From assembly GCF_900098925.1 (NCBI RefSeq), contig NZ_LT622342.1, positions 1 through 64,000 of the forward strand: a DNA stretch of 64,000 nt, in the 5' to 3' direction. A model generated the notes under the pieces. That model made no database searches. It was given only the letters and a program-made list of their open reading frames with translations, and was not told where the DNA came from. The DNA comes from Bacillus massiliglaciei. GTDB lineage: Bacteria > Bacillota > Bacilli > Bacillales > DSM-1321. The translations under genes and the position numbers were made by a program. Of the stretch, positions 8,115 through 26,800 are shown one piece after another. The first letter of the stretch is position 1. Each line of letters opens with the position of its first letter.

Positions 8115-8129
8115 TTTAATTTCGCTCCT

Positions 8130-8495: not shown

Positions 8496-8564
8496 AGTTA
8501 CCACCACTTTTCCTTGATTTATATAAGTCGGTAGTTTTAAATGGCAAAACCAATGAATAAAAGA

Positions 8565-8599
8565 ACAGGAGGAGGAAGAGGGCGTTTCCTCTCTCCTGT
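8565..8599 (-). terminator. Terminator downstream of the RadC-like gene
   Basis: ACAGGA (8565-8570) and TCCTGT (8594-8599) close an extended, imperfect stem. On the minus strand it is followed by TTCTTTTATT. Confidence 0.55.
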
Positions 8600-8608
8600 A
8601 TGTAATTT

Positions 8609-9067: not shown

Positions 9068-9165
9068 TTAAAACGCTCCTTTTTCTTTTGAGTGATTGTT
9101 TAATTTTATATAAGCAGAAAGATTTGCTTTTCTATTTAGGTATTAATTCCTCACCTCCTTATAAT

Positions 9166-11212: not shown

Positions 11213-11334
11213 CAAATAGTACCTCGTTTCTTAGTAGTAAGTAACGAGAACCGGTAACTTTTTCCCTGCTGAGATTATTTTACCATGAAATAGAATGGTA
11301 GATGGTGTTTAGGGGGAAGTTTTTATGGCATAGA

Positions 11335-11376
11335 GGGGTACGACCGAGGTACTTGTAAAAAAGGGTCATAGCATGG
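11335..11376 (+). repeat. Left terminal inverted repeat of the Tn3-family element
   Basis: It begins GGGGTACGACCGAGGTACTT and ends AAAAAAGGGTCATAGCATGG. The right end, inverted, is the same except at three positions. The target duplication ATAGA immediately precedes it. Confidence 0.95.
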
Positions 11377-11748
11377 ATTTTTTTTACATTTACAACCCTT
11401 TTTACTCTGTAGGGTAGGGTGGGGTCAGAAAAGTGCGGTTGTTGGTAGGATCCTAATAGGGGTAGTGTCATTGTCGCTACTCCTATTAAGGAATACTTAA
11501 ACTAAATCACAAATTAATAAGAAGAAACACATCTTAAAAAATGAGCATTGAACCTTTGCATAATAAGCAAAAGTCCTTTAAAATTTGTTAGCCGGGTAGA
11601 AAATGCTATAATGCTCTTATAAAAAAGAATGGATGCAAAATAGTTTAGGTAAGTTCTAAAACGATTTCTTTTATTCTTCGACAAACAGGCCAGATTCGTA
11701 ATTTCTCAAGAGAATAATACAAGTCGCTGTAGGGGTTTTTGTGTTTTT
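11377..11748. other. Non-coding left arm of the transposon
   Basis: No gene is supported here. An imperfect hairpin (TCCTAATAGGGGTAG against CTACTCCTATTAAGGA, 11451-11492) is the only clear structure. Short frames on the minus strand lack ribosome sites. Confidence 0.4.
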
Positions 11749-12735
11749 TCACTTATGATCACTTTGATATACAAGACCTATTTCATCTCTCACTTTATCC
11801 AACACTTGTATCGTGGTGTATGAATTTTTATATGAGTTAGTATCAGACTCTGTTTTTCCTCGGTTGATTAATTCAATAAATTCTTTCACTTCGTAATACA
11901 TAGCTGGATGAGATTGGTCGACTGTTAATTGTTCAACCGTGCCGTCAGTGTAGTGAATTTCTACTTTTTCAGCCGTATGAATCTTATCAATCATGATACT
12001 TCCTTTTTCGCCTTGAATTTCGCTTGGTAAATAAGAGTTCGTTATTTTGGAATACATCACAATCGCATCTTTATCATCATATTTTAAGATGACGCTACCT
12101 TCACCATCCACACCCGAATCAAGCATAATGCCAGTTGCCTTCACTTCTTTTGGTTCACCAAATAATGTAATAAGTGGATACAAACAATAGACACCAAGGT
12201 CCATTAATGAACCGTTCGCAAACTCTGGATTGAAGGCATTAAGGACAATTCCTTCTTTGTATTTATCATAACGAGATGAATACTGACAATAGCTTGCAAA
12301 GTATCTACGGATAGGACCAATTTTATGTAAATTATCTTGAATGACCTTGAAGTTTGGAAGTAATGTTGATTTCATTGCTTCCATTAATAGGGCGTTATGA
12401 TCTTTTGCGGCTTGAATCATCCTCGCTACTTCGGTTGCATTAACAGCCAGTGGCTTTTCACATAACACATGTTTGCCATTTTGCAAAAATAAAATAGCTT
12501 GTTCTGCGTGATATGAATTGGGAGTAGCAATGTACACCGCGTCAATTTCTTGACTAACTGCCATTTCTTTTAGGTTTGTAAATATTTTTGTTACTCCATA
12601 TTTACTTGCAAATTCTTCTGCTCTACTAATCGTGCGAGAATAAACAGCAGTTAGTTTAAAATCTTCTACATCATTTGCTGCTTCAAGTAATCTTTCTGTA
12701 ATCCAATTAGTACCGATTACGCCGAATCGAACCAT
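11749..12735 (-). CDS. Gfo/Idh/MocA-family NAD(P)-dependent oxidoreductase
   Basis: The 328 residues have an N-terminal Rossmann domain (FGVIGTNWITERLL near 4-17; IATPNSYHAEQA about 69-80) and the family motif CEKPLA with the key lysine near 95. A C-terminal alpha-beta domain follows (GSLMDLGVYCLYPL about 173-186). It resembles B. subtilis YulF-type proteins. Substrates in this family are usually sugars, inositols or related dehydrogenation targets; none is predictable here. It lies 358 bp downstream of hxlB in the same direction, behind a terminator-like stem, so it may have its own promoter. A place in formaldehyde metabolism is suggested only by location. Confidence 0.85.
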   Translation of the reverse strand: MVRFGVIGTNWITERLLEAANDVEDFKLTAVYSRTISRAEEFASKYGVTKIFTNLKEMAVSQEIDAVYIATPNSYHAEQAILFLQNGKHVLCEKPLAVNATEVARMIQAAKDHNALLMEAMKSTLLPNFKVIQDNLHKIGPIRRYFASYCQYSSRYDKYKEGIVLNAFNPEFANGSLMDLGVYCLYPLITLFGEPKEVKATGIMLDSGVDGEGSVILKYDDKDAIVMYSKITNSYLPSEIQGEKGSIMIDKIHTAEKVEIHYTDGTVEQLTVDQSHPAMYYEVKEFIELINRGKTESDTNSYKNSYTTIQVLDKVRDEIGLVYQSDHK

Positions 12736-13023
12736 TTATTCAACCTCATTCCTTTGTTTTATAAAACGAAGAGTTTTGTTTACTACACTTATGAAGCGTT
12801 TTTCATCGCCAATAGGATTTTATTTTCCCATAAAAAAACTTATATAGACATGGGGCCTACCAGTGAAATATTGGTGATAACCCAAATAGGGCTCATACTG
12901 TGAGTGATGGCTAAATTCTTGGCTGTGCCCCACCCAATAATGATCTCTGATCCGGCCATAGAAGGGACTGAATCAGAGGCTATTTTTTCTTTCCTGTATG
13001 GACTGTGTTATTTGTAATATGCA
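12736..13023 (-). other. Possible structured leader of the oxidoreductase gene
   Basis: Read leftward, this gene-free stretch has a stem CTCTGAT/ATCAGAG (about 12936-12978). Farther on, GGGGC and GCCCC blocks (about 12925 and 12853) could pair across roughly 70 bases. No terminator with a clean T-run is formed. I do not recognise a known riboswitch class. Confidence 0.3.
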
Positions 13024-13065
13024 GTAAAGACCGCAATTCATAAAAGAAATAAATGCGGTCTTTAC
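13024..13065. terminator. Terminator-like hairpin after hxlB
   Basis: GTAAAGACCGCA (13024-13035) pairs with TGCGGTCTTTAC (13054-13065). The stem is strong, but the following bases are only weakly T-rich. Confidence 0.65.
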
Positions 13066-13093
13066 GATGTTTCCATATTTTTTAAAGTGTACT

Positions 13094-13651
13094 CTATTCG
13101 AGATTGGCATGTTTGCCGTACATTTTAGTAGAGTCTAAGCCTTTTTTTTCCATAAAACGCAAGATCAATGCATCATAAAATAATAACATCGTTTGCTCAA
13201 AAAGTGACCCCATTGGTTGTATGGTCTTATATTCACTTTCAGATTGATCTTTCGGTGATCCAGGCAATTTAATGATAATATCAGCTAATTTTCCAATCGT
13301 GGAGTCAGGGGAAATCGTTACAGCTGCGACCGTCCCACCTAAACTTTTTGCTTTTTCAGCGATTGAAACCAAGGTTTTCGTTTCACCTGAACCTGAACCG
13401 ATGATCAACAAATCACCTTTTTCTAAATTTGCTGTTACAGTTTCACCGACTACATAAGCATCGATCCCCATGTGCATCATTCTCATCACGAAAGATTTGC
13501 CCATAAATCCAGATCTGCCCGCACCTGCAACAAAGATTTTTTTGGATTCCAGAATCTTATTAACCAACTTCTCTGCTTCTTCGCCAGAGATTAAGTCGAC
13601 TGTCCGACTTAATTCTTGAACGACTTCAGCTAAATATTGAGTAGTTTTCAT
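13094..13651 (-). CDS. hxlB: 6-phospho-3-hexuloisomerase
   Basis: It isomerises D-arabino-3-hexulose 6-phosphate, made by HxlA, to fructose 6-phosphate in the ribulose-monophosphate pathway. The 185 residues form a single SIS sugar-isomerase domain, the usual length. Visible marks are KIFVAGAGRSGFMGKSF (about 34-50), VVGETVT, the loop GSGSGETKTL and the C-terminal QPMGSLFEQ helix. It lies 8 bp after hxlA with only a weak ribosome site (AAGGTTAATT), so it is probably coupled to hxlA translation. The hxlA-hxlB order and the divergent hxlR are as in B. subtilis. Confidence 0.96.
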   Translation of the reverse strand: MKTTQYLAEVVQELSRTVDLISGEEAEKLVNKILESKKIFVAGAGRSGFMGKSFVMRMMHMGIDAYVVGETVTANLEKGDLLIIGSGSGETKTLVSIAEKAKSLGGTVAAVTISPDSTIGKLADIIIKLPGSPKDQSESEYKTIQPMGSLFEQTMLLFYDALILRFMEKKGLDSTKMYGKHANLE

Positions 13652-13659
13652 AGTTATAA

Positions 13660-14292
13660 TTAACCTTGTTTAATTAATTCTTGCATTTTAGCTGCAACTG
13701 CTTTTTTATCGTCTTTGCTTGTGATACCGCCACCTACGATGACAAGATCTGGTTGTACTTTAATCACATCTGGAAGTGTTTCTAATTTGATTCCGCCTGC
13801 AATAGCAGTTTTCGCATTTTTTACAACGCTCTTAATGGTTGCAAGGTCTTCGAAAGAATTTTTTCCTACAGCTTGAAGGTCATAACCTGTGTGAACGCAG
13901 ATATAATCTACTCCTAGTTCATCCAGTTCTTTCGCACGACCTTCAATGTCTTTAACTGCGATCATATCAGCAAGGATTTGTTTACCTTGTTTTTTTGCTT
14001 CTTCTACAGCACCTTTAATGGACTCGTCTTCAGCTGTACCAAGAATGGTGATGATGTCAGCGCCTGCTGCAGATGCTTGGCTAACTTCATATCCAGCTGC
14101 ATCCATGATTTTAAGGTCAGCTAATACAGTTAAGTTAGGGAAGGCAGCTTTCACTTCCTTTACTGCTTTAAGGCCTTCATTAATCACAACCGGCGTGCCG
14201 ATTTCTACAACATCTATATGATTTTCTACTTCTTTCACCAATTCAATGGCTCCTGGAATATCTACAAGATCTAATGCTAATTGTAATTTCAT
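13660..14292 (-). CDS. hxlA: 3-hexulose-6-phosphate synthase
   Basis: It condenses formaldehyde with ribulose 5-phosphate to give 3-hexulose 6-phosphate, the entry of formaldehyde into the ribulose-monophosphate route. The 210 residues make one TIM barrel of the OMP-decarboxylase superfamily at the normal length. The metal and phosphate-binding parts are present: LQLALDLVD at the start, LADLKIMDAAGYE (about 58-70) and VVGGGIT near the end. ATAAGGAGCGAG precedes the ATG. The promoter at 14397-14440 carries a box shared with the zwf unit, and hxlR is divergent. Confidence 0.97.
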   Translation of the reverse strand: MKLQLALDLVDIPGAIELVKEVENHIDVVEIGTPVVINEGLKAVKEVKAAFPNLTVLADLKIMDAAGYEVSQASAAGADIITILGTAEDESIKGAVEEAKKQGKQILADMIAVKDIEGRAKELDELGVDYICVHTGYDLQAVGKNSFEDLATIKSVVKNAKTAIAGGIKLETLPDVIKVQPDLVIVGGGITSKDDKKAVAAKMQELIKQG

Positions 14293-14396
14293 TTATTACT
14301 CGCTCCTTATATAATAGTATAATTGTGCCGTATAGCTTTCTTTTGCACAGTGTTATTGTATCCAATTGATAGCTATTTACTAACGGTATGATACTC

Positions 14397-14437
14397 AGTA
14401 TACTGGGTATGTTACTAAATTAAAAGTATGCACTTTT
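14397..14437 (-). promoter_or_regulatory. hxlA promoter with HxlR-type box
   Basis: On the minus strand: AAAGTGCATACTTT (14436-14423), exactly 20 bp of spacer containing TAACATAC, then TATACTGA with TATACT as the -10 (14402-14397). The same architecture occurs before the zwf unit at 16974-17013. HxlR of B. subtilis activates hxlAB in response to formaldehyde, so the box is a good candidate for its site; the assignment is inference. Confidence 0.75.
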
Positions 14438-14441
14438 TTAT

Positions 14442-14464
14442 CATATAGTAACAAAAAGTATACT
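14442..14464 (+). promoter_or_regulatory. Probable hxlR promoter region
   Basis: TAGTAAC (14442-14448) mirrors GTTACTA at 14411-14417, and a second AGTATACT (14457-14464) lies exactly 60 bp from the first (14397-14404). TATACT at 14459-14464 is a plausible -10 for hxlR. The symmetry suggests the intergenic region is bound by one regulator over both promoters. Confidence 0.5.
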
Positions 14465-14496
14465 ATGGGACATAATAAGGGTTGGAGGTGAAATGA

Positions 14497-14862
14497 ATGC
14501 CGAATCTTGGGGAAAAAGTGTTTAATTGTGAAAAAGAATTGACTCTTTCGATTATTGGTGGAAAATGGAAAATGTTGATATTGTGGCATCTAGGAAAAGA
14601 AGGAACCAAACGTTTTGGTGAACTAAAGGCCCTCATGCCGGGTATCACTCAAAGAATGCTTGTTAATCAATTGCGCGAACTTGAAGACCATTTGATTGTT
14701 CATCGTGAAGTCTATCCTGTCGTTCCACCAAAAGTTGAATACTCACTCACTGAGTATGGAAGAAGTCTGATGCCTATTCTGGATGCTATGTATGACTGGG
14801 GTAAAGATTATATTGAGAATGTATTGGAAAAAGAAACAGAAAACAAATCGTCTATTCAGTAG
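14497..14862 (+). CDS. hxlR: HxlR-family transcriptional activator of the formaldehyde genes
   Basis: A 121-residue winged-helix regulator. It has the HxlR hallmark start [22 protein letters not shown] (cysteine at residue 10), recognition region [16 protein letters not shown] and wing [17 protein letters not shown]. The start is fixed by GGAGGTG seven bases upstream. In B. subtilis HxlR activates hxlAB on formaldehyde exposure, and the N-terminal cysteine is the likely reactive residue. Here it is divergent from hxlA. Matching boxes before zwf suggest it governs the whole cassette. Confidence 0.93.
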
Positions 14863-14921
14863 AAAAAAGAGTTTCTCCTAGGGGTTCGAAAAAGTGTAAA
14901 AAAGTTCATATACTAACAAAC

Positions 14922-14963
14922 CACGGTTAGCTATCTTAATAAAGATGCTGTCCGTGTTTTTTT
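14922..14963 (+). terminator. Terminator after hxlR
   Basis: CACGG (14922-14926) with inner AGC and ATCTT pairs with AAGAT, GCT and CCGTG (to 14956), followed by seven T. Confidence 0.75.
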
Positions 14964-15139
14964 ATATCTCTACGTATTTAAAAGGTTGAAAAAACACAAC
15001 ATTTAAACACAACATTTAATAAAAGAACGGTGTTTGTCAATATAGTTGTCGCATTTAGCTTGTTTAGTATTTTATTAAATATCCGTTTACTGTCGTTTAG
15101 CTCCAAGTTCAATCAAGGCTACCGCGCTGCGCTTGCTGG

Positions 15140-15191
15140 CCTGGTGATTTGAGTCGAAAAGAAAAGCGTGCTTTCGACTCAAATCACCAGG
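15140..15191. terminator. Perfect 20-bp stem at the IS end
   Basis: CCTGGTGATTTGAGTCGAAA (15140-15159) and its exact inverse (15172-15191) flank 12 bases, just after the orfB stop. It may protect the element from, or end, transcription. Confidence 0.75.
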
Positions 15192-15202
15192 GAAAAGGCG
15201 TA

Positions 15203-16282
15203 TTATGATTTTCCCAATGCTTCTGTTTGCCCCTCATCTCGCATTGGATTAAGCGCTACTTTTTCGTGTGGCGACCAATTCCTTGTGGCTCGTGCCCAAC
15301 GCTCTGGATGCTTCGCCTTCGCTGCTTCGTACACGTCTTTTCGGTTTTCTAATACGGCCACATACGCCCCAGTGTGGCACTGCACCGGTGTCACAAAATT
15401 GAGCCCACTATGCAAGTGAACCTCATTATACCAATAGACAAATTGCTGGGCCCATTGCCTTGCTTTCTCGAGTGACACAAACCCTTTGTGTGGGAAATCC
15501 GGGCGATATTTAAGCGTCCGAAACATCGCTTCTGAATACGGGTTATCGTTACTCACACGCGGTCTGGAAAACGAGCTTTGAATGCCCAATTTCTCCAGTA
15601 AACCTAGGAATGTTGCTGCTTTCATCGGACTACCATTGTCGGAATGTAACACCAGCGGTTCGCCTTGGATTTTTTCGCTGATGACTGCTTTTTTCACGAG
15701 TGTCTCCGCGTATTTTGCCTCTTCTGTTTCCCATACTTCCCAGTTGACTACCTTTCTACTAAATAAGTCGAGAATTAAATAGAGTCGATAAAATAAACCT
15801 TTTGCCGGTCCGCCAAGCCATGTAATATCCCATGTCCACACTTGATTTGGCGCTGTTGCGAGATGGCTCTCTGGGATTCTTCGCTCCGGTTTTTGGCTTC
15901 GACCTCGGTGATTTTGCATCTTTTCTTCACGCAACACACGATAAAATGTTGATTCTGACGCAATATAAGTGCCTTTGTCTGCTAGCTTCGGCACGATTTG
16001 CGTTGGTGGTCAATCAGTGTATTCTTCTTGTTTTACGACGGCCAGTATTTCTCCTTTTTCCTTTTCAGACAACTTATTTTTCGGTATTGGGCGTTTTGTA
16101 AGTGGACGCTGATCGACCTTCACGCAACCTTCCGCCACCCAGCGCTCATATGTCCGAACACTAATGTACAATACCTGACAAGCCTTCGTTAATCGAGCAC
16201 CGTTTTGATTGGCTTCTTGTATCAGTTCTACAGCGAGTGCGCGATTTGACGGGCTAATCATTCTTCCTCGTCGTCCCCCCAA
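15203..16282 (-). pseudogene. IS3-family transposase orfB, interrupted by an in-frame TGA
   Basis: The DDE integrase domain is intact in sequence: D in WTWDITWLGG, D in LHSDNGSPMKAATF and E in SNDNPYSEAMFRTLKYR. The frame from 16282 runs into TGA at 16010-16012 (after KQEEYTD) and continues in the same frame with PPTQIVPKLADKG, where related elements have a leucine-type residue. The upstream part overlaps orfA by 25 bp in the -1 frame. Slippery strings AAAAAAG (16294-16300, minus strand) or GGGGGGA nearby would allow the fusion product. The nonsense codon should abolish it. Confidence 0.85.
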
Positions 16283-16764
16283 ATCGCTTGGGCCTTTTTT
16301 CTAAGCAGTATTAATGCCGCAGCTTCTGCCAGCGCCTTCTCTTTCTTTTGTAAATCTTTCTCTAAAGCCTTCGCTCGTTGTTGTTCTTCTTTCAGCTGTA
16401 CATTCAACTGCTTAGCTTGATCGAATGCCTGACCATGAAGGCATACACTCTTCCACGCCTCAATCTGTTCACGGTATAATCCTTTTTTGCGACAATACTC
16501 TGCTAGCTCCAGCTCATTCATCGAAAACGTCTCCATCACGATTAAAAACTTATCTTGACTACTCCACTTGTCGCTCGTTTGTCCATTGCCAGGCGTTGCA
16601 GTACCTGCAGCTCGTGCTTCCTTACGCCATTTATACAACGTCACTTCTGTAATACTTTCTTCTTTACTCAACTTCGCCACTGATTCATTCTGAGGTGGCA
16701 TCATACGTTTGACAATTTCATCTTTTCGTTCCTGTGTGTAACGTACTCTATTTCGTCCTGTCAT
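16258..16764 (-). CDS. IS3-family transposase orfA
   Basis: The 168 residues begin MTGRNRVRYTQERKDEIVKR. A helix-turn-helix follows (SVAKLSKEESITEVTLYKWRKEA, about 28-51), and a C-terminal leucine-zipper-like helix covers about 120-155. This is the DNA-binding half of the IS3 transposase. GGAGG lies nine bases before the ATG. The frameshift region near the end would fuse it to orfB. Confidence 0.85.
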   Translation of the reverse strand: MTGRNRVRYTQERKDEIVKRMMPPQNESVAKLSKEESITEVTLYKWRKEARAAGTATPGNGQTSDKWSSQDKFLIVMETFSMNELELAEYCRKKGLYREQIEAWKSVCLHGQAFDQAKQLNVQLKEEQQRAKALEKDLQKKEKALAEAAALILLRKKAQAIWGDDEEE

Positions 16765-16852
16765 ATCGATTGACCTCCGTGTAATTTACTTAATCATACC
16801 ACGTTAGCCTCGTACGACATCTATCCTAACAGAGGGGGAGAATCAGTTACTA

Positions 16853-16899
16853 AAAAGCCAAGGGCAGCGAATCTTGTATAATCGCTGTCCTTGGCTTTT
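16853..16899. terminator. Terminator upstream of the zwf unit
   Basis: AAAAGCCAAGG (16853-16863) and CCTTGGCTTTT (16889-16899), with inner CAGCGA/TCGCTG, form a long stem. It would block read-through from the IS side into the zwf promoter. Confidence 0.75.
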
Positions 16900-16973
16900 C
16901 ACTCTTGGTATTGGATTCAAGTTTATAGTATTATTTTTAACACTATGTTATACCAATGTATCTATATGTTAAT

Positions 16974-17013
16974 AAAGTGCGTACTTTCAAAAGTATAACA
17001 TACGTAATATACT
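16974..17013 (+). promoter_or_regulatory. Promoter of the zwf unit with HxlR-type box
   Basis: AAAGTGCGTACTTT (16974-16987), then 20 bp containing TAACATAC, then TATACTGA with TATACT at 17008-17013. Box, spacer length, inner TAACATAC position and -10 match the hxlA promoter; 13 of 14 box bases are the same. Confidence 0.75.
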
Positions 17014-17151
17014 GATTTTGCTCAAGTAATAGCGAGCTTAAAGAATACTACCAAACCTTAAGGGAATACTGCTACAAGCATGGTGAGATGAAGTGAAACT
17101 TCATTTAATAATTTATACATGTTGTTGCTTTTTACGAAAGGAGAGATCCGC

Positions 17152-17316
17152 ATGGAAAGGTTCAAAACTAAGCAGCGAAAAGTTTGTGAAAGATGTCTAA
17201 TCATCACCATAAATAATGAAACCTGTCCAAAATGTGGACATTCTCAATTAAGAGATATCATTATTACCGGACAAGCTGGGAGAAATAAACGAAACTTACA
17301 TCCAAAAGTAGGATAA
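17152..17316 (+). CDS. Small zinc-ribbon protein
   Basis: The 54 residues start MERFKTKQRKVCERCLI behind GAAAGGAGAGATC. Two CxxC pairs (C12/C15 and C25/C28) make a zinc ribbon, and the rest is basic. It is the first gene after the shared-type promoter, about 95 bp before zwf, so it is probably part of that transcript. The function is unknown. A metal-site regulator, a chaperone or a formaldehyde-reactive thiol protein are guesses only. Confidence 0.6.
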   Translation: MERFKTKQRKVCERCLIITINNETCPKCGHSQLRDIIITGQAGRNKRNLHPKVG

Positions 17317-17412
17317 CGCAATAGCGAAAATCCTTGTTGTTTTGTAGGGGAAACGAAGAAAATCAGACATTTTTCTATTTGAAAATGCTTTGAAAAAGTG
17401 GAGGAATGAAAA

Positions 17413-18885
17413 GTGGATTCTATGACGTTTGTCTTATTTGGGGCAACTGGGGATTTAGCTAAGCGAAAAATCTACCCTGCCTTGTTTAATTTATATTTGA
17501 ATCAAAAATTACCAGATTCTTTTTTGATCATTGGTGTAGGAATAGACGAAATGTCTGATGTTGATTTTCAAAACCATGTAACAGACTCGCTATACACTTT
17601 TTCTAGACACTTGATAAATGATAAATCCGAAAAACAAGAGTTTGTAAAGGCATTTCGTTATTGCCAGTTAGATTTCACGAATGCTGAAGGGTATAAGAAG
17701 TTAGTTGAAGTCGTTCAACAAAATGAAAAAGACCAGAGTATTGAAGAGAATCGAATGTTTTATCTTTCTGTTGCTCCTGAATTCTTTGATGTAATTGCTT
17801 TGAACATCAAGGAGAGTGGATTAGGCTCGACAAAAGGATGGAAACGATTAATGATCGAAAAACCATTTGGGCGTGATTTAAAATCTGCTCAAGATTTAAA
17901 TGAAAAACTAAGCAAAGCTTTTGAAGAAGACGAAATTTTCAGGATTGACCATTATCTTGGAAAACCGATGGTTCAAAACCTTGAAGCTTTAGAATTTGCC
18001 AACCCTGTGCTGCAATCACTATGGAACAATCGGTATATTGCCAATGTGCAAATAACGGCTAGTGAAACGGTTGGTGTAGAAGAGAGAGCTAGTTATTATG
18101 AAAAAGCAGGGGCTATTCGTGATATGGTCCAAAATCATATGATGCAGCTGTTGATGATGACGGCCATGCATCAGCCAAAACAGATGAGCACGAACGATAT
18201 CCGTACAGTGAAAAGAAAAGTTATGGACTCTCTTCGGCCAGTACAGAAAGATACTGTAGGTATCCACGTTGTTCGTGGTCAATATGGACCGGGGGAAATA
18301 AAGGGTAAACCTGTAGTCGGATATTTAGAAGAACCTGGAGTGAATGCTTCTTCCACAAACGATACATTTGTGGCTGCTCGTTTATGGATTGATAGTTCAT
18401 TCTGGGATGGGGTGCCATTTTATATCCGGACAGGAAAAAGAATGAAGGAAAAGTCGACGCGGATTGTGATTGAATTCAAGAATCCAACGAAAAATGTGTA
18501 TACTAACGAGAATCAATTTGCAGAACCCAATCTATTAGTTATCAAAGTAAGTCCAAATGAGGGTGTGTCGATGCAATTAAATAGCAAAAATTTAACAAAT
18601 GGAAATTTGGAGCCGATAATTGTTGACTTCTCAGCAAGTACAAAAGACATACCAGAAGCTTATGAACTCTTAATATTCGATGCTCTGCGTGGGGACTCTA
18701 CCTTCTTTGCTCATTGGGACGAAGTTGAATTATCTTGGAAATGGGTACAGCCCGTTTTAGAGGCGTTTGAGGAAAATGCCCTTCCACTCCACCTATATCA
18801 AGCCGGTTCGATGGGGCCACAAGCTGCTTCGCAATTATTGGAGGAGGATGGTTTTAAATGGTGGGAAACTAGGGGGGGAGTTTAA
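17413..18885 (+). CDS. zwf: Glucose-6-phosphate dehydrogenase
   Basis: It oxidises glucose 6-phosphate to 6-phosphoglucono-lactone with NAD(P)+. The 490 residues are full length. The start is GTG at 17413, behind GGAGG. The dinucleotide loop GATGDLAKRK (about 9-18), the substrate loop RIDHYLGK (about 177-184) with its catalytic-site histidine, and EKPFGRD are present. In this cassette it carries hexulose-derived glucose 6-phosphate toward ribulose 5-phosphate regeneration. It lies second in the rightward unit, upstream of gnd. Confidence 0.97.
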   Translation: MDSMTFVLFGATGDLAKRKIYPALFNLYLNQKLPDSFLIIGVGIDEMSDVDFQNHVTDSLYTFSRHLINDKSEKQEFVKAFRYCQLDFTNAEGYKKLVEVVQQNEKDQSIEENRMFYLSVAPEFFDVIALNIKESGLGSTKGWKRLMIEKPFGRDLKSAQDLNEKLSKAFEEDEIFRIDHYLGKPMVQNLEALEFANPVLQSLWNNRYIANVQITASETVGVEERASYYEKAGAIRDMVQNHMMQLLMMTAMHQPKQMSTNDIRTVKRKVMDSLRPVQKDTVGIHVVRGQYGPGEIKGKPVVGYLEEPGVNASSTNDTFVAARLWIDSSFWDGVPFYIRTGKRMKEKSTRIVIEFKNPTKNVYTNENQFAEPNLLVIKVSPNEGVSMQLNSKNLTNGNLEPIIVDFSASTKDIPEAYELLIFDALRGDSTFFAHWDEVELSWKWVQPVLEAFEENALPLHLYQAGSMGPQAASQLLEEDGFKWWETRGGV

Positions 18886-18992
18886 TCCGCACCTCCCTGG
18901 AAGGCTATTGGTATGAAGAGAGCAAACCGAGGTTGGATTTGACAGATAATTGTTACGCGATTTACCCAAGGAACTTAAAGTATTTGTTGAAT

Positions 18993-19010
18993 CCTTATGG
19001 TTCCATAAGG
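18993..19010. repeat. Short palindrome between zwf and gnd
   Basis: CCTTATGG, TT, CCATAAGG. It may be a processing stem or a regulator site; there is no T-run after it. Confidence 0.35.
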
Positions 19011-19083
19011 AGACCATGAAGAACAACAAATGGGTAGCATAATAATACAGGCTATTTTTTGTAATTTAAAGGAGGAAACTCAA

Positions 19084-19977
19084 GTGAAAGTAGGATTAAT
19101 TGGATTAGGGAAAATGGGTATGAACTTAGGAAAAAACTTAATTGACAATAAACACCGTGTAATGGCGTTTGATCTAAATACAAATACTATTGAAGAAATT
19201 AAAAAATACGGAGTTGAAGGAGCATCCAGTTTACAAGATCTTGTTCAATCATTAGAAAAGCCACGAGTTGTTTGGATAATGGTCCCACACTCCGTCGTTG
19301 ATTCAGTTATTAGTGAAATCACACCATTTCTAAGTGAAGGAGATATCGTCATTGAAGCTGGTAATTCGCATTATAAGGAATCCATTCGTCGTTACGAACA
19401 GTTGAAGAAAGTTGGAGTGAGCTTTATGGATGCCGGTACTTCTGGGGGGATGGAAGGTGCTCGCTATGGTGCTTGTTATATGATTGGTGGAGATCCTGAA
19501 GCATGGAGCATTGTCGAGCCGATTTTTAGAGATACAGCTGTAGATAATGGGTATTTATATGCTGGGAAATCTGGTAGTGGCCACTTCTTAAAAATGGTCC
19601 ACAATGGAATAGAATACGGAATGATGGCCGCCATTGGTGAAGGATTCGAAGTCCTGGAAAAAAGCGATTTCGATTTTGACTATGAAAAAGTGGCACGGGT
19701 GTGGAATAACGGTTCTGTCATCCGCTCATGGCTCATGGAATTGACAGAACGCGCATTTTCTAAAGATGCAAAATTAGATGAAATTAAGGGCATTATGCAT
19801 TCTTCTGGGGAAGGGAAATGGACAGTTGAAACCGCTTTGGATCTTCAAACAGCTACCCCTGTTATCGCTATGTCTTTACTAATGCGTTACCGTTCATTAG
19901 ACAATGATACATTTACAGGTAAAGTGGTAGCTTCCCTTCGTAATGAATTTGGCGGACATGCTGTGGAAAAATCATAA
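19084..19977 (+). CDS. gnd: 6-phosphogluconate dehydrogenase, decarboxylating (short form)
   Basis: It converts 6-phosphogluconate to ribulose 5-phosphate and CO2 with reduction of NAD(P)+, closing the oxidative formaldehyde cycle. I start it at GTG 19084, behind AAAGGAGGAAACTCAA, giving 297 residues. That is the short YqeC-like class rather than the roughly 470-residue Gnd. Seen: VGLIGLGKMGMNLGKNL at the N-terminus, IEAGNSHYKES, the substrate motif MDAGTSGGMEGARYGAC and the catalytic GHFLKMVHNGIEYGMM. Short-form enzymes are often NAD-preferring. Confidence 0.95.
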   Translation: MKVGLIGLGKMGMNLGKNLIDNKHRVMAFDLNTNTIEEIKKYGVEGASSLQDLVQSLEKPRVVWIMVPHSVVDSVISEITPFLSEGDIVIEAGNSHYKESIRRYEQLKKVGVSFMDAGTSGGMEGARYGACYMIGGDPEAWSIVEPIFRDTAVDNGYLYAGKSGSGHFLKMVHNGIEYGMMAAIGEGFEVLEKSDFDFDYEKVARVWNNGSVIRSWLMELTERAFSKDAKLDEIKGIMHSSGEGKWTVETALDLQTATPVIAMSLLMRYRSLDNDTFTGKVVASLRNEFGGHAVEKS

Positions 19978-20093
19978 AGTCATCTGCTGTATATGTCTTT
20001 CGTTAAAATGAGCCGGAAATTCATTGGATTTTTAGTTTGGTATATCCCAAAAATTGGTAGATTTACTTAAGTCGTTGATAGTGCTAACTATGT

Positions 20094-20275
20094 TGATTGA
20101 AGCAGAAGGAGCGAGACTCCTCGAAAATGCATTCACATTTTCTCGTGCGGTGCCTATTCACGGATGATGATTCAACGTCCTGCGGGAAAAACAGGACAAG
20201 GGAGACCCCGCAGCCGCACAGCGCCGAGGAGGCTCCCGGCTCGCCCGCGGAAAGCGAGCACCTGGAGCCAACAGA
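20094..20275. repeat. Bacillus-type GC-rich intergenic repeat, interrupted
   Basis: The blocks GGAGCGAGACTCCT, TCCTGCGGGAAAAACAGGAC, GAGACCCCGCAG, GAGGAGGCTC, CGCCCGCGGAAAGCGAGC and CCTGGAGC belong to a repeat abundant between genes in many Bacillaceae. Base composition is far more GC-rich than the rest. Between the first block and the second about 55 bp of unrelated sequence is inserted. Its presence inside the transposon suggests the zwf-gnd segment came from a Bacillaceae chromosome. Confidence 0.7.
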
Positions 20276-20323
20276 CAAGTTTAACAGAGCCAAAAAAATA
20301 AAACAATATTGGGGTGTGACATC

Positions 20324-20815
20324 ATGAACGTATTGGATGCAAAAATCATTAACACACAATATGGTTTAGAAACCTATTTAGACATGGTGAAGAATATCGA
20401 AGTAAAAGAACTCCATTCTCCATCAGATAATGAGCCCTTTTATGAAATAGTATTAGGGATAGAGTATTTTCTTCTAAGGGACGGAAAATATTATGATAGT
20501 GAAAGGAATTATTTTCGGATTCAAATGAGCGAAGATTTTAATTCAATCACGTTAAGAGAGACAGATACCGAAAGTTTATTTGCTGTCAAAACCGAACACG
20601 AGAGAGACTCAACTAAGCTACTGGTTGGAGAATGGCTTATAAAAACCAATGCTTTCAAGCAAGTAATAAGTGAACTGATCCAACAAAAGAAAATGGAGAA
20701 TGTTCAAAATGAGGGAGACACTCGAAAAGTATTAGGAACGATAAGATTCTTGGAAATATTACTTGAAATCAAAACAGAAGACATACTAAGTGCCGATGTA
20801 GAGAGGGACCATTGA
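20324..20815 (+). CDS. Hypothetical protein in the cassette (163 aa)
   Basis: It starts MNVLDAKIINTQYGLETYL with GGGGTGTG upstream. The protein looks soluble and alpha-beta, with no signal or membrane helix. I recognise no family. It lies between gnd and pgi in the same direction, so it may be co-expressed with them. A role in the pathway is possible but unsupported. Confidence 0.6.
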   Translation: MNVLDAKIINTQYGLETYLDMVKNIEVKELHSPSDNEPFYEIVLGIEYFLLRDGKYYDSERNYFRIQMSEDFNSITLRETDTESLFAVKTEHERDSTKLLVGEWLIKTNAFKQVISELIQQKKMENVQNEGDTRKVLGTIRFLEILLEIKTEDILSADVERDH

Positions 20816-20960
20816 GTTTTCTTAATACTAACTATCTTTTAATGTACGCTATTGATAATTACACGGTCCCACTAAGGATTTTTCAAAATTGAAAAGGGGG
20901 AGTTTAAATGTGTTTTTAAAAACTTCCCTTATATACTGTAGAAAAGGAGAATGCACTAAC

Positions 20961-21059
20961 ATGAAACGTTTTACTATGCCGAGAGATCTTTTTTACGGAG
21001 AAGGATCTCCGATTGAAGCAGCTAAGCTAAATTTGATTGAAAGGGGAAGTAATGTATGA
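20961..21059 (+). pseudogene. N-terminal remnant of an iron-type alcohol dehydrogenase
   Basis: A 32-codon frame, MKRFTMPRDLFYGEGSPIEA…, has a good ribosome site (AAAAGGAGAATG). It matches the conserved start of group III (iron-containing) alcohol dehydrogenases, which open with a pattern like R-F-x-x-P-R-D-x-x-x-G-x-G-S. The normal protein has about 385 residues; only the first roughly 24 resemble the family. The frame ends in TGA overlapping the pgi start (ATGA), so translation of the stub may feed pgi. Confidence 0.65.
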
Positions 21060-22393
21060 CTATTTCGTTTGATTACTCCAATGCATTAGCATTTATGAAA
21101 AAGAGTGAAGTAGATAATCTAAGTGAATTTGTAAAAGTGGCTCATAAAATGCTACATGAAAAAACAGGCCCCGGCTCTGATTATCTTGGTTGGGTCGATT
21201 TGCCACTAAACTATGATAAGAGTGAATTTGAAAGAATTAAACAAGCTGCTGAAAGAATCAAGAAACATTCAGACGCAATGGTTGTAATTGGTATTGGTGG
21301 TTCGTACCTGGGGGCAAGATCGGCTATAGAATCTCTGTCCCATAGCTTTCATAACCAGATGAACAATAAGACACATGTTTATTTTGCCGGTCAGAATATC
21401 AGTTCTACTTATATCTCTCATTTATTTGAGCTATTAGAGGGGAAAGATATCTCTGTTAACGTCATTTCTAAATCAGGAACAACGACAGAGCCAGCCCTTG
21501 CTTTCCGTATTTTCCGTGACTATATGGAGAAAAAATACGGAAAAGAAGAGGCGAGAAAACGTATTTTTGCTACTACAGATCAGAAAAAAGGCGCATTAAA
21601 AAAGCTTGCGGACGAAGAAGGATATGAAACGTTCGTTATTCCGGATGATGTTGGTGGAAGGTATTCTGTGCTAACAGCAGTTGGTCTCTTACCAATTGCC
21701 GTAGCAGGACTTGATATTGATCATATGATGGAAGGGGCAGCAGCAGCAGCCCGTAAATACAACAATCCTGATTTATTGACAAATGAGAGCTATCAGTATG
21801 CTGCGGTCCGAAATGTACTCTACAATAAGGGAAAAGCAATTGAAGTGCTTGTTAACTATGAGCCCTCCCTTCACTACGTATCGGAATGGTGGAAGCAGCT
21901 GTTTGGGGAAAGTGAAGGAAAAGATCAAAAGGGGCTATTCCCTGCTTCCGTTGATTTTTCAACGGATTTGCATTCCATGGGGCAATATGTACAAGAAGGT
22001 CGACGAAACCTTTTAGAAACGGTTTTACAGATTAAGAAACCTCGAATTGAAGTGACTATTCAGGAGGATCCAGAAAATATTGATGGATTAAACTTCCTGG
22101 CAGGTAAGACGATGGATGAAGTCAACAAAAGTGCATTTCAGGGTACCCTTATGGCCCATATAGATGGAGAAGTACCTAATCTCGTGATTGAACTGGATGA
22201 AATGAATGAATACACTTACGGTGAGATGGTTTACTTTTTTGAGAAGGCATGTGGGATTAGTGGCCATCTATTAGGAGTTAACCCATTTGACCAGCCTGGA
22301 GTCGAAGCATACAAGAAGAATATGTTTGCTTTACTTGACAAACCTGGTTTTGAAGCAGAAAAAGCTACTCTCATGGAGCGTTTATCAAAATAA
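21056..22393 (+). CDS. pgi: Glucose-6-phosphate isomerase
   Basis: It interconverts fructose 6-phosphate and glucose 6-phosphate, linking HxlB to Zwf in the cycle. The 445 residues match the usual Bacillus length (about 450). SIS domains are seen as [29 protein letters not shown] and [17 protein letters not shown]; the C-terminal QPGVEAYKK is present. GGGGAAG precedes the ATG, and the start overlaps the stop of the dehydrogenase stub. Glycolytic pgi copies on a transposon are unusual, which strengthens the reading as a pathway cassette. Confidence 0.97.
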
Positions 22394-22426
22394 TTATATC
22401 TGATTGGTTTTGTATTAATAAAAAGA

Positions 22427-22457
22427 TTGTTACCAAAAATCATATTTTTTGTAACAA
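22427..22457 (+). terminator. Terminator-like hairpin after pgi
   Basis: TTGTTAC (22427-22433) pairs with GTAACAA (22451-22457), extended by A/T pairs inside. Confidence 0.55.
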
Positions 22458-22489
22458 CGTTTATGAGAAATAATGATGCTTGATTTTAC

Positions 22490-22597
22490 TAATTTTATAG
22501 GTTACCAAAAATAATTACCAAAAATTTTACCAAATACTTTTACAAAAATGAAGTCTCTTGTACAATAAAATTATTAAATTGTGCAGGGGGCTTCTTT
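22490..22597. other. Probable res site of the transposon
   Basis: The AT-rich stretch upstream of tnpR holds repeated TTACCAAAAA and an imperfect dyad TGTACAAT...AATTGTGCA (about 22559-22584). Resolvase-binding subsites are normally placed here in Tn3-family elements; I cannot define the three subsites exactly. Confidence 0.5.
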
Positions 22598-23164
22598 ATG
22601 ATAATCGGTTATGCCCGAGTTTCGACAGTTGACCAAAATTTAGACCGACAAATTATATTACTTTCTGAGTACGGCTGTGAAAAAATGGTTCAAGAGAAAT
22701 TTACCGGGACTACAAAGGATAGAGATGGACTTAACTCATTGCTAGATGTTATACGGAAAGGTGATACCGTTGTAGTTGAAAGTATTTCACGATTAGGGAG
22801 AAGAACACTTGATATTCTTTCTATTATTCAGCAATTCGAGGATACAGGTGTAAAGTTCGTTTCTATTAAAGAGAATATGGATACAAGAACATCAACAGGA
22901 AAAGCCATGTTTCAAATGATGTGTGTCATTGCAGAATTAGAAAGAAATTTAATTGTAGAGAGAGTTAAAGAAGGATTAGAAGCTAGTAAGAAAAGAGGAA
23001 AGAAACTAGGGAGACCAAAAGTTGATCAAGGAAAAATTGAAATAGCCTTGAGGATGTATGACAGTAAAGAATACTCGGTAAAAGAAATTGTAGAAGGTAC
23101 AGGACTTTCACAGGGTTCATTATATCGAGCAATTAATAAAAGAAAACTAAAAGAAGTAAATTAA
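22598..23164 (+). CDS. tnpR: Tn3-family resolvase
   Basis: The 188 residues form a serine recombinase that resolves cointegrates at res. The catalytic start is IIGYARVSTVDQNLDRQ, with the nucleophilic serine at residue 9. SISRLGRRTLDIL and AELERNLIVERVKEGL follow, and a C-terminal helix-turn-helix (GRPKVDQGKI…GLSQGSLYRAI) ends it. A GGGGG ribosome site precedes the ATG. It lies directly before tnpA in the same direction. Confidence 0.95.
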   Translation: MIIGYARVSTVDQNLDRQIILLSEYGCEKMVQEKFTGTTKDRDGLNSLLDVIRKGDTVVVESISRLGRRTLDILSIIQQFEDTGVKFVSIKENMDTRTSTGKAMFQMMCVIAELERNLIVERVKEGLEASKKRGKKLGRPKVDQGKIEIALRMYDSKEYSVKEIVEGTGLSQGSLYRAINKRKLKEVN

Positions 23165-23258
23165 TAACCTCTTATTAATTTTTAGGAATTATGTGATGGA
23201 CTAAGCTAGGGTAACTATTCTGTTACTATCCCAAATTACTGTGAATGGAGTTGGCAAT

Positions 23259-26213
23259 TTGGCATCCATAGAACGTACAGCTTACCCAAGATTTAAAAAA
23301 CGTCCTACTTCAAAAGAACTTCGTGATATTTACTCCCCTACACCTGAAGAAAATCAATTTGCGCATAAAGTTGCTAGGGGGCCTGTTTCAGTTCTTAGTC
23401 TACTAATTATGTTAAAGTCTTTCCAACGTCTTGGTTACTTCCCACGACCGAAAGATAATCCTGTAGAGATCATGATTCATATTCGGACTTGTTTGAATCT
23501 CTCTGCTAGTGTTGAACCGAATTACAATAGTAAATCAATTTATCGACATCAAAAAGCAATAAGAGATTACCTCAGTGTACGTCCTTATGGAAAAGAAGCA
23601 TTACATATTGCCACTACTTCAATTTATAAGGCTACACAGGTAATGGACAATCCGGCTGATCTTATCAACGTATCCATTGAAATATTAATAAAAGAAAGGT
23701 GTGAGTTACCTGCTTTTAGTACATTAGATCGATTGGCTCGTCGTATAAGAACATTAGTGAATCACCAGCTATTTAATTCAGTATTTTCAAAACTAACTCC
23801 TGAAGTTAAGCAAAAATTAGACCAATTACTAGTTACTACAGATGATAATCGGACTTCTGAATATAACTATTTAAAGGAAATTCCAAAAAGCGCAACACTT
23901 TCTCATATGAAGGAAATACAAAATAGATTACACTGGTTAACTGACTTTATAGAAGAAATTGATAGCTTACTAAAGACTATTCCAAATTCAAAAATTAAGC
24001 ACTTCGCTTTAGAAGCAAAAGCGCTTGATGTATCAGAATTAAAAGACTTTAATTTGCCTAAAAGATATACGCTGTTACTTTGTATGATTTATCGCTCAAA
24101 AATTTCAGTTATTGATAGTTTGGTAGAGATGTTTCTGAAAAGAATTAGAGCTATACATAACAAAGGCAAAGAGGAGTTAGAACTTCTTCGAGAAAAACAT
24201 AGGTCAAAAACTGAAAATCTCATATCTGTTTTGGCGGAAGTCATAGATACCACAAGTATAAATGAGAACGATACCCTTGCTGGTCAGAAAATAAAGGAGT
24301 TATTAGAAAAAAGAGGTGGCATCACAGCATTAAAAGAAGATTGCGAATCAATTTCATCATATAATGGCAATAACTACCTTTCTCTTTTATGGAAGTTCTA
24401 TAAAAGCCACAGGAAAACTCTTTTTAGATTGATTAGTATGATTGAAATTGATTCAACCACTCAGGATCAATCACTTTTAGAAGCCTTACAATTTTTACGT
24501 GACAATGAGAACAGAAAAATTGAATATCTACAAATAGATTTTGATCTTTCATTTACTAGTGAACAGTGGAAAAAAACGATTTATGTACCTAAAGAAAATA
24601 ATTTAATTTATCGAAAACACCTTGAAATCTGTATTTTCTCCTATCTTGCCGGCGAGTTAAAGACAGGAGACCTTTGTGTAAAAGGATCAGAGAATTTTGC
24701 CGATTACCGTGAACAGCTCCTTCCCTGGGAAGAGTGTAAACCTATGGTAGCCGAATACTGTAAGGAGCTCGGCTTTTCTTCAAATTCAAGGGATTTTGTT
24801 AAACAATTAAAGCTCTGGCTAGAAGATACCGCACAAAAAGTAGATGAAGGCTATCCTAATAACGGTCAAATAATTATTAATGAAAATGGAGAACCAACGC
24901 TGAGAAAAATAATAAGAAAAGAACAACCTCAAACAAGCAAGGCGTTAGAGGCAGTTATTTCTCAACGGTTACCTGAACGAAATGTCTTAGATATTCTTTG
25001 TAATGTAGAACATTGGACAAAATGGACACGGCATTTTGGACCGTTATCTGGTTCAGATCCTAAGATTGAAAATACAATGGAACGTTATATCATAACCTCT
25101 TTCGGCTACGGGTGTAATTTGGGGCCAACGCAGACTTCTAAGCACATGAAAAAGGCAGTAACCCCACATATGATTTCATTTGTAAATCGGCGACATATTA
25201 ATGCATCTAAAATAGACGCGGCAATTCGTGATATTTTAAATCAATACAATCAATTTAGTTTGCCTAAACTATGGGGTGATGGAAGAACGGCTGCTGCAGA
25301 TGGAACAAAATTTGATCTCTACGAAGAAAACTTAATCTCTGAATACCACATTAGATATGGAGGTTATGGGGGGATTGCGTATCATCATGTTTCAGATACT
25401 TATATTGCACTCTTTAGTCACTTCATTCCATGTGGGGTATGGGAAGCAGTTTACATTATTGATGGATTGCTAAAAAATAAATCAGACATTCAGCCCGATA
25501 CGTTACATGCGGATACGCAGGGTCAATCGACGCCTGTTTTTGCACTTGCACATTTATTGGGGATTAATTTAATGCCCCGTATTCGAAATTGGAAGGATTT
25601 AAAATTTTACAGGGCTGATAAGGACACAAAATATCACCACATTGACCAGTTGTTTAGTGATACAGTTGATTGGGATCTAATTGAAACACACTGGCAAGAC
25701 CTGCTCCAAGTTGTTCTTTCTATAAAAGCTGGTAAAATATTACCCTCTACACTACTTAGAAAACTAAGTAACTATAGTAGGAAAAACCGATTATATCAAG
25801 CTTTTAGGGAATTAGGAAGGATTGTGAGAACTGTATTTTTGCTTAAATATATTTCTGATATAAAACTAAGAGAGCAAATTGGTGCTAGTACAAACAAAGT
25901 CGAAGCATATAACGGCTTTTCCAAATGGCTATTTTTTGGTGGCGATGGAATCATTTCAGAAAATGATCCAGAAGAGCAAGAAAAGCGAATTAAATATAAT
26001 GATTTAGTTGCCAACGCAGTAATATTCCAAAATGTATGTGACATAACACTTATTTTATGGGAACTTTCTAAAGAAGGCTATGTATTTTCAAAAGAAGATA
26101 TTGTAATGCTTAGCCCATATCTGACTAGGCATATAAAACGTTTCGGAGACTATATGATAGATTTAGAAAATGTTCCACAACCGATCGAAGAAGGTATTCC
26201 AATAAATATATAA
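23259..26213 (+). CDS. tnpA: Tn3-family transposase
   Basis: The start is placed at TTG 23259 (MASIERTAYPRFKK), behind GGAG, because family members begin this way; a GTG six codons upstream is less likely. The 984 residues fit the family (about 950-1,010). The DDE triad is visible as D in TAAADGTKFDLY, D in LHADTQGQSTPVF and E in STNKVEAYNGFSKW. The N-terminal DUF4158-type domain contains the PTPEE motif. It ends 42 bp before the right terminal repeat, as expected. Confidence 0.96.
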   Translation: MASIERTAYPRFKKRPTSKELRDIYSPTPEENQFAHKVARGPVSVLSLLIMLKSFQRLGYFPRPKDNPVEIMIHIRTCLNLSASVEPNYNSKSIYRHQKAIRDYLSVRPYGKEALHIATTSIYKATQVMDNPADLINVSIEILIKERCELPAFSTLDRLARRIRTLVNHQLFNSVFSKLTPEVKQKLDQLLVTTDDNRTSEYNYLKEIPKSATLSHMKEIQNRLHWLTDFIEEIDSLLKTIPNSKIKHFALEAKALDVSELKDFNLPKRYTLLLCMIYRSKISVIDSLVEMFLKRIRAIHNKGKEELELLREKHRSKTENLISVLAEVIDTTSINENDTLAGQKIKELLEKRGGITALKEDCESISSYNGNNYLSLLWKFYKSHRKTLFRLISMIEIDSTTQDQSLLEALQFLRDNENRKIEYLQIDFDLSFTSEQWKKTIYVPKENNLIYRKHLEICIFSYLAGELKTGDLCVKGSENFADYREQLLPWEECKPMVAEYCKELGFSSNSRDFVKQLKLWLEDTAQKVDEGYPNNGQIIINENGEPTLRKIIRKEQPQTSKALEAVISQRLPERNVLDILCNVEHWTKWTRHFGPLSGSDPKIENTMERYIITSFGYGCNLGPTQTSKHMKKAVTPHMISFVNRRHINASKIDAAIRDILNQYNQFSLPKLWGDGRTAAADGTKFDLYEENLISEYHIRYGGYGGIAYHHVSDTYIALFSHFIPCGVWEAVYIIDGLLKNKSDIQPDTLHADTQGQSTPVFALAHLLGINLMPRIRNWKDLKFYRADKDTKYHHIDQLFSDTVDWDLIETHWQDLLQVVLSIKAGKILPSTLLRKLSNYSRKNRLYQAFRELGRIVRTVFLLKYISDIKLREQIGASTNKVEAYNGFSKWLFFGGDGIISENDPEEQEKRIKYNDLVANAVIFQNVCDITLILWELSKEGYVFSKEDIVMLSPYLTRHIKRFGDYMIDLENVPQPIEEGIPINI

Positions 26214-26255
26214 AAACAGCACAGAATAAAAAAGGGTTTTAAATGGTAAATAATA

Positions 26256-26297
26256 CCATGATATGACCCTTTTTTACATGTATCTCGGTCGTACCCC
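26256..26297 (-). repeat. Right terminal inverted repeat of the Tn3-family element
   Basis: It reads CCATGATATGACCC… to …CTCGGTCGTACCCC and is the inverse of 11335-11376 except for three bases. The duplication ATAGA (26298-26302) follows. Confidence 0.95.
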
Positions 26298-26423
26298 ATA
26301 GAGGTATAGAAAAAGCTAGGCTTTAGACACGGCTTCTTTTATTCCATCGGGGATCGATCCTGGCCAAGCCCACGGACAAGAAAGGATTCGGTACTACAAA
26401 TAAAAAAACCTGTCACGACATGA

Positions 26424-26462: not shown

Positions 26463-26800
26463 ATGGAAAACAAGGTGGTATTAATTGAGTTATTTAATAA
26501 ATTCAATACTTATTTAAAAGAGGAAATAGGAGCCAAACCATTGCTAGATATGGAAATGTACGAACCGTACAAATGGAATCGCACGAATCGGACAAATCCA
26601 TTAGTACAAACCGTACAAATGAAAATCAGCAAATCGCACAAATGAAATCGTACGAATCGCTCAATTCTTTAACAGAGAATACAACAAAGATTACTTCAGA
26701 GGTTTTTGAAACTGTCAAGCCGGAGCAGCACGCTTTCGGAATATTCGGAGAGAAAGGACCAGGATATGAATCTCTTCCAAACTTGGCCGGCATCGGTTAG
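26463..26800 (+). pseudogene. Decayed, frameshifted small gene beside the repeats
   Basis: Two overlapping frames (MENKVVLIELFNKFNTY…, and MESHESDKSISTNRTNE…) look like one coding region broken by a shift near 26570. A short tandem pattern (…CGTACAAAT…CGGACAAAT…) lies in it. The part KEEIGAKPLLDME resembles EEQIRPNPLIDLE encoded in the downstream A repeats, which suggests the repeats arose from this gene. Function unknown. Confidence 0.35.

Follow-up and report, generated by a model that had tools for sequence, protein, structure and literature searches.

Mobile elements are known for carrying resistance genes and linear catabolic routes, and a regulated, nearly self-contained cycle of central metabolism on one transposon would be unusual. 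Among the closest described systems, the cyclic RuMP route is, in the sections of a review cited here and to its authors' knowledge, active only in RuMP methylotrophs, and a table in the same review also has Bacillus subtilis (PMC8879981). For the B. subtilis regulator HxlR, the portion of the report used here describes a Cys11/Lys13 peptide that is cross-linked by formaldehyde, together with a rise in DNA binding and reporter expression (PMC7835342). Staphylococcal plasmids carry a seven-gene cluster with hxlA, hxlB, pgi, gndA and zwf between copies of IS257; as far as the cited part of that paper goes, the cluster, which is IS257-flanked in pShoR14-1, lacks direct repeats and its function is termed unknown (PMC9782665). 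Finally, the Aeromonas plasmid pAsaXII bears frm formaldehyde detoxification genes, according to the excerpt cited (PMC5736529). A preliminary description of the element presented below had stated that no well-described transposon holds all five cycle genes. That statement needs qualifying, as the accessible portion of PMC9782665 already presents the IS257-flanked plasmid cluster; for the present transposon itself we recognised no describing paper in the literature searched, which took in few subscription journals and was seen in part, and a term search of the available text of a Priestia megaterium strain announcement found none of 'formaldehyde', 'transpos' and 'hxl' (PMC8265218).

The window, by which we mean the whole 64,000-nucleotide stretch of Bacillus massiliglaciei DNA that was analysed, contains a real, mobile and modular Tn3-family transposon that, judged from its sequence, would encode a near-complete and probably formaldehyde-regulated oxidation cycle. 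The transposon is complete and occupies positions 11335-26297. Terminal inverted repeats of the Tn3 family are about 38-48 bp long with GGGG at the start; here the left repeat (11335..11403, plus strand) pairs with the right one (26229..26297, minus strand), the two ends (GGGGTACGACCGAG...) being identical at 39 of 42 positions and at 87% over 69 nt. The 5-bp target duplication ATAGA stands on both sides (11330..11334 and 26298..26302). On the plus strand, tnpR (22598..23164, PF00239) encodes a serine resolvase and tnpA (23241..26213) a Tn3-family transposase (PF01526, 502 bits; NF033527, 745 bits against a cut-off of 500). TnpA thus scores above the Tn3 cut-offs of both Pfam and NCBIfam, and TnpR above the Pfam resolvase cut-off and above none in NCBIfam. 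The element therefore has the DDE transposase, GGGG-start repeats, 5-bp duplication and resolvase with res palindrome by which the family is recognized, and the inverted ends, ATAGA duplication and tnpR/tnpA pair claimed in the preliminary description all stand.

From left to right, the element holds a Gfo/Idh/MocA oxidoreductase gene, hxlB, hxlA, hxlR, an IS3-type insertion, a 54-aa ORF, zwf, gnd, a gene for a 163-aa protein, pgi, tnpR and tnpA, so that the cargo lies entirely between the left end and tnpR. Both hxlB and hxlA are on the minus strand, and everything from hxlR through tnpA is on the plus strand except the IS. The IS3-type insertion, the Gfo/Idh/MocA gene, the 54-aa zinc-ribbon ORF and the 163-aa protein are additional to the cargo first described.

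Is this one unit that moves? When the element was compared by megablast with 72,556 plasmid records, 20 of them matched, and four did so across 80% or more of the query, namely two plasmids from a single P. megaterium strain (L001 and L002) and plasmids of two Paenibacillus urinalis strains. An exact scan with one end pattern in genome_contigs (one genome per species, 84,980 species) found 18 stretches in 10 genomes. Copies with both ends number 12 including the window's own; the eleven further ones are the four on these plasmids and those in Bacillus sp. B1-b2, Bacillus sp. 522_BSPC, Cytobacillus horneckiae, Bacillus sp. PS06, Robertmurraya yapensis, R. kyonggiensis and Oceanobacillus bengalensis, and span Priestia, Paenibacillus, Cytobacillus, Robertmurraya, Oceanobacillus and unclassified Bacillus. 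Eight sites, the window's included, each show a different 5-bp duplication (ATAGA, AAGTA, TCTTT, TAACT, TTTAA, AAATA, ATATT and TATTT). The two P. urinalis copies have one insertion site in common, as do, by their flanking bases, those of B1-b2 and 522_BSPC; no matching duplication pair was found at the R. yapensis copy, and the C. horneckiae copy stops at a contig edge and gives no duplication reading. The earlier proposal that the element can move between replicons is borne out by the P. megaterium strain, in which it sits at different sites on two plasmids, and by near-identical copies in other genera that are flanked by duplications of their own. Since near-identical copies occupy different positions in several genera, this part of central metabolism seems to be mobile in the manner of resistance genes.

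The preliminary description had named, as its own refutation, an empty-site comparison in which the ends belong to different elements. With the joined flanks of three insertions as queries, two of the three sites were found empty, each closing exactly at the duplication predicted for it. Uninterrupted forms of the pPmC-129-4 site occur in Priestia plasmids: of 22 matching records, 21 cover at least 80% of the query and 14 reach 99% or more, the latter a count that may include the insertion-bearing plasmid itself. In all eight records listed of the 22, the site aligns in one piece over 600 of 600 positions at 100%. The P. urinalis site is likewise intact in NZ_CP118102.1 (600/600 at 100%). The empty site of the window's own insertion had no match in the plasmid search. 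Because two insertions have exact empty sites, the two ends delimit one element and belong together, and a reading of them as chance or unrelated ends is ruled out.

For C. firmus NBRC 15306, a neighbourhood reading that covered one locus for each of 10 genomes showed only fragments of tnpA and of the ends, with more distant relatives of cargo genes elsewhere. CP079755.1, a plasmid record labelled Klebsiella grimontii, matches tnpA at 71% and tnpR at 78% (6138-9158 and 321373-322019); mislabelling and wide transfer are both possible.

Some features of the surrounding DNA may be recorded here. Just to the right of the element (26553-27946) are tandem repeats with periods of about 23, 256 and 264 bp and repeated short ORFs. 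The remainder of the window (28007-64000) resembles a plasmid backbone, with a MobA/MobL relaxase, a ParA-type ATPase, an Alp7A-like actin, and TraG-, PrgI- and secretion-ATPase-like genes. No exact terminal overlap of the 71,769-bp contig was found.

Besides moving as a whole, the element appears to be assembled from halves. In the mechanism that we propose, TnpA would move the unit with 5-bp duplications and TnpR would act at res. A palindrome between pgi and tnpR (TTGTTAC...GTAACAA, 22427..22457), with a central AT at 22442-22443, is the probable res crossover site. Junctions at a single dinucleotide are expected from a serine resolvase with a 2-bp overlap, and three types of junction, whose partner DNA is unrelated, all break at the central AT. 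Similarity to the element ends there in a B. subtilis kimchi plasmid (L005) and, with one further base matching, at a junction common to Paenibacillus sp. 453mf and Marseille-Q4541 (L045 and L047); it begins there, with the tnpR-tnpA half, in a second Marseille-Q4541 contig (L048).

The window element is, on alignment with locus L039, itself mosaic at res: left of 22440 the two have 25 differing columns in 9.3 kb (four of them from the IS duplication), and from 22440 on 252 in 3.9 kb. Taken alone, this mosaic, in which the first of the 252 differences falls 2 bp to the left of the central AT, could be explained by homologous recombination. That ordinary homologous recombination or deletion, and not TnpR, produced the exchanges at res is nevertheless unlikely in our estimation, since three junction types at the mid-palindrome AT, with partner DNA that is unrelated, are hard to account for in this way. 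We therefore favour the reading that TnpR probably exchanged cargo and transposition halves at res, which makes the element a clear candidate for an exchange of cargo at res.

Comparison of the copies revealed further variation. In the 11.9-kb Oceanobacillus copy the 163-aa gene is missing, and tnpA has 92.5% identity with that of the window. Two versions of zwf, about 92% alike, occur on elements that are otherwise similar. Against the window's Gfo/Idh/MocA gene (11749..12735, minus strand, identified by profile matches), the matching stretch is one base longer in eight copies and equal in four loci; L046 has a match of 982 bases and L005 a partial one. Being one base longer, the gene is probably frameshifted in those eight copies; given this variation in length, it is unlikely to be essential. 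Both Robertmurraya copies bear a 3.2-kb extension (L044 15158-18398) that starts with an HxlR-type operator block and holds a Zn-type alcohol dehydrogenase gene, a second resolvase, a tnpA tail and a second right end, and in R. kyonggiensis ATATT stands on both sides of the whole 16.4 kb. The insertion between hxlR and the zwf block (15028..16838, minus strand), which we read as IS3-type from its HTH_Tnp_1 and rve domains, is bounded by an AGAA duplication (15024-15027 and 16839-16842), and its second frame is broken by an in-frame TGA. The four copies that were aligned in full over this position lack it, and no hit over half or more of its length was seen in the 29 loci compared.

The cargo listed in the preliminary description (hxlA, hxlB, pgi, zwf, gnd and hxlR) was recovered in full. 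All five genes for enzymes are intact, and the products (Hps, Phi, Pgi, Zwf and decarboxylating Gnd) score above curated NCBIfam cut-offs: hxlA (13660..14292, minus strand; TIGR03128, 289 bits, cut-off 200), hxlB for 6-phospho-3-hexuloisomerase (13094..13651, minus strand; TIGR03127, 259 bits, cut-off 160), pgi for glucose-6-phosphate isomerase (21056..22393, plus strand; NF010697, 733 bits, cut-off 443), zwf for glucose-6-phosphate dehydrogenase (17413..18885, plus strand; TIGR00871, 577 bits, cut-off 400.6) and gnd for 6-phosphogluconate dehydrogenase (19084..19977, plus strand, its ORF opening at 19030 and the start following the L001 annotation; TIGR00872, 478 bits, cut-off 297). The last model is the NAD-dependent one. 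The product of hxlR passes the HxlR cut-off of Pfam and that cut-off only.

In the predicted cycle, HxlA would couple formaldehyde with ribulose 5-phosphate and HxlB would yield fructose 6-phosphate, which Pgi would convert to glucose 6-phosphate for oxidation by Zwf; a host lactonase would then open the lactone, and Gnd would give off CO2 and regenerate ribulose 5-phosphate. Each turn would thus burn one formaldehyde and gain two reduced nucleotides, the net cycle being formaldehyde + NAD+ + NADP+ -> CO2 + NADH + NADPH. A 6-phosphogluconolactonase was absent among the ten element proteins scanned with Pfam and NCBIfam, and the host chromosome encodes one PF10282 (lactonase) protein, to which the lactone step may be left. 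The host chromosome also has its own hxlA, hxlB and hxlR (81, 73 and 81% protein identity to those of the element) and its own zwf (49%). The element therefore adds to existing genes, and the gain may be one of dose.

The regulator points to formaldehyde. The hxlR gene (14497..14862, plus strand, PF01638) encodes a putative formaldehyde-responsive activator whose closest solved relative is B. subtilis HxlR (7bzd); the window protein has in its first helix, with Cys11 and Lys13, the peptide FNCEKEL that is cross-linked in the B. subtilis protein. By extension from B. subtilis, formaldehyde would cross-link the window HxlR at these two residues, and HxlR would then activate hxlAB and probably also, acting at a second operator, the zwf-gnd-pgi block. 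A probable operator lies in the gap between hxlA and hxlR (14423..14466, plus strand), with the sequence AAAGTAYGCACTTT-N6-ACATAGTGNTAAAAAGTATACTAT; a pattern for the block finds it in 25 of 29 loci and also in the chromosomal copy of the host, the four misses being L048 (where there are no hxl genes), L054 (a near variant), L057 and L058.

A second probable operator (16925..16987, minus strand) lies upstream of the zwf block, where the two halves are reversed and more widely spaced, start 439 and 488 bp before zwf and score 23.3 and 26.4 bits under a motif whose training set included the hxlA-hxlR site and left out the zwf site. At 18 bits or more, operator halves occur in the 64-kb window at these two sites only. 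In 300 Markov elements, the maxima were 20.1 bits for half 1 and 19.9 for half 2, with none of the 300 reaching 23 bits (half 1) or 20 bits (half 2); at a low threshold (>10 bits), 20 Markov elements gave 44 chance matches for half 1 and two for half 2. Both halves are found on one strand in 14 of 18 zwf-upstream stretches, a set of 14 that includes three copies of the window element and other close relatives. In the remaining four, the second half is on the other strand (L007b and L051b), half 1 stands alone (L058) or neither is present (L057). We infer that the conserved blocks are HxlR sites; since the probable operator is found again ahead of zwf, the two gene blocks are probably co-induced. 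The formaldehyde role is thus strengthened by the Cys11/Lys13 pair of HxlR and by operator-like sites before both gene blocks.

Two other readings of the cargo were weighed. The first is a formaldehyde assimilation (methylotrophy) module, in which fructose 6-phosphate would feed growth and not be burnt. In the passages of the review cited here, hxlA and hxlB are common to the assimilation and dissimilation routes (PMC8879981), and alcohol dehydrogenase genes stand near relatives of the cluster; the element proteins scanned, however, include no alcohol dehydrogenase, and what the element adds is zwf and gnd, the oxidative return path, so that we consider assimilation very unlikely. The second, to us the least probable of all, sees the cargo chiefly as a source of NADPH and pentose phosphates during oxidative or thiol stress, with hxlAB secondary. 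It would accommodate zwf and gnd as the oxidative pentose phosphate path, and relatives of HxlR sense electrophiles and oxidants, as stated in the portion of PMC7835342 consulted, but the Cys11/Lys13 pair specific for formaldehyde is retained in the regulator, and operator-like sites connect hxlAB with zwf. We are accordingly left with a high degree of confidence in a passenger that would be a formaldehyde-inducible dissimilatory RuMP cycle on a Tn3-family transposon, the probable exchange by TnpR at res included. From sequence comparisons we infer the function of the enzymes, the oxidation of formaldehyde, its inducing effect and any tolerance conferred.

The two small cargo proteins are less easily placed. 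The 163-aa protein (20324..20815, plus strand) belongs to a family linked to zwf-gnd clusters. It had no Pfam match even at an E-value of 5, and a profile search of solved structures with its family gave one hit, a protein kinase at E 1.4, which we take as chance. Relatives occur on 14 plasmid records and, in a sample of 299 genomes of the order, in 19, which include the host and a copy of the window element as well as two genomes with only broken reading frames. In the neighbourhoods fetched (11 of the 19 genomes), zwf and gnd are nearby in eight, the gene following directly after gnd in six; of the others, one has Fe- and Zn-alcohol dehydrogenase genes and two have no cycle gene. We read the protein as a putative formaldehyde-linked accessory protein, and its family as a candidate for a role in formaldehyde oxidation. 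The 54-aa zinc-ribbon-like ORF (17152..17316, plus strand) is annotated in L001 and has Pfam matches below the cut-off only. It stands between the second operator and zwf, and has relatives in several other clusters.

How widespread is such cargo on plasmids? HxlA relatives at E 1e-30 occur in 144 plasmid records, 81 of them staphylococcal, and 16 of the 144 were opened (nine and seven). Among the last seven, seen over the stretch shown and with an incomplete gene table, one (S. aureus) has all five enzymes; hxlA and hxlB only are present in Leuconostoc, Latilactobacillus and Alicyclobacillus, hxlA without hxlB in an S. xylosus plasmid, hxlA, hxlB and a glucose-6-phosphate isomerase family gene in a Salmonella plasmid, and hxlA, hxlB, zwf and gnd without pgi in P. 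megaterium NCT-2.

The S. aureus plasmid pBSN170 (L086 326-6425) holds a five-enzyme hxl cassette with an HxlR-family regulator (PF01638), and its neighbours are one IS6-family transposase and qac genes. This 6.1-kb cassette matches 79 plasmid records, 34 of which hold at least 80% of its length, the query record counted. Staphylococcal plasmids thus bear the same five enzyme functions as the window element, in pBSN170 again with an HxlR-family regulator, as far as the published description was available. In contrast, the cassette proteins are 34-61% identical to the window's, its gnd is annotated as the long NADP-type GndA against the NAD type here, and the pBSN170 regulator has, by eye, no Cys at the sensing position. 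No Tn3 gene was seen in the pBSN170 stretch shown, and a two-mismatch scan of the cassette for operator halves gave three weak matches, none of them in the pgi-hxlA gap. Identity and gnd type rule out that the window cargo belongs to the staphylococcal lineage; the cassette is apparently the same idea, built separately.

More broadly, the chances seem to us evenly balanced that the element represents a modular platform for mobile one-carbon detoxification, in which a whole cycle with a formaldehyde switch on both blocks travels as one unit, a resolvase swaps cargo at res (also with Zn-alcohol dehydrogenase neighbours), a formaldehyde-linked 163-aa family takes part, and staphylococci have separately built an equivalent cassette beside qac biocide genes. 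Such a natural and compact formaldehyde-burning module would be of interest for engineered methylotrophy. It would also offer a testable answer to why staphylococcal plasmids bear zwf and pgi, which the authors of the staphylococcal study find hard to imagine in the part cited (PMC9782665).

Among better characterized transposons, Tn4430 is a useful reference. Its solved transposase aligns with the window TnpA over residues 99-973 (875 residues, E 4e-77), with blocks of the WGDG, ADT and NK-EA type, which we take to be the sites of the catalytic D, D and E, in register by eye. Resolution of Tn4430 is by the tyrosine recombinase TnpI, whereas the window element has a serine resolvase and metabolic cargo. 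With B. subtilis hxlR-hxlAB, the element shares a regulator with the same sensing residues and the same two enzymes, to which it adds zwf, gnd, pgi, a second operator-like site and mobility. The dissimilatory RuMP cycle of Bacillus methanolicus and other methylotrophs is, by the sections cited, the same cycle around ribulose 5-phosphate (PMC8879981), but the window version is transposon-borne, has its own regulator and is without an alcohol dehydrogenase among the proteins scanned. Finally, where pAsaXII has a glutathione-dependent frm-type system, the window element has a sugar-phosphate cycle.
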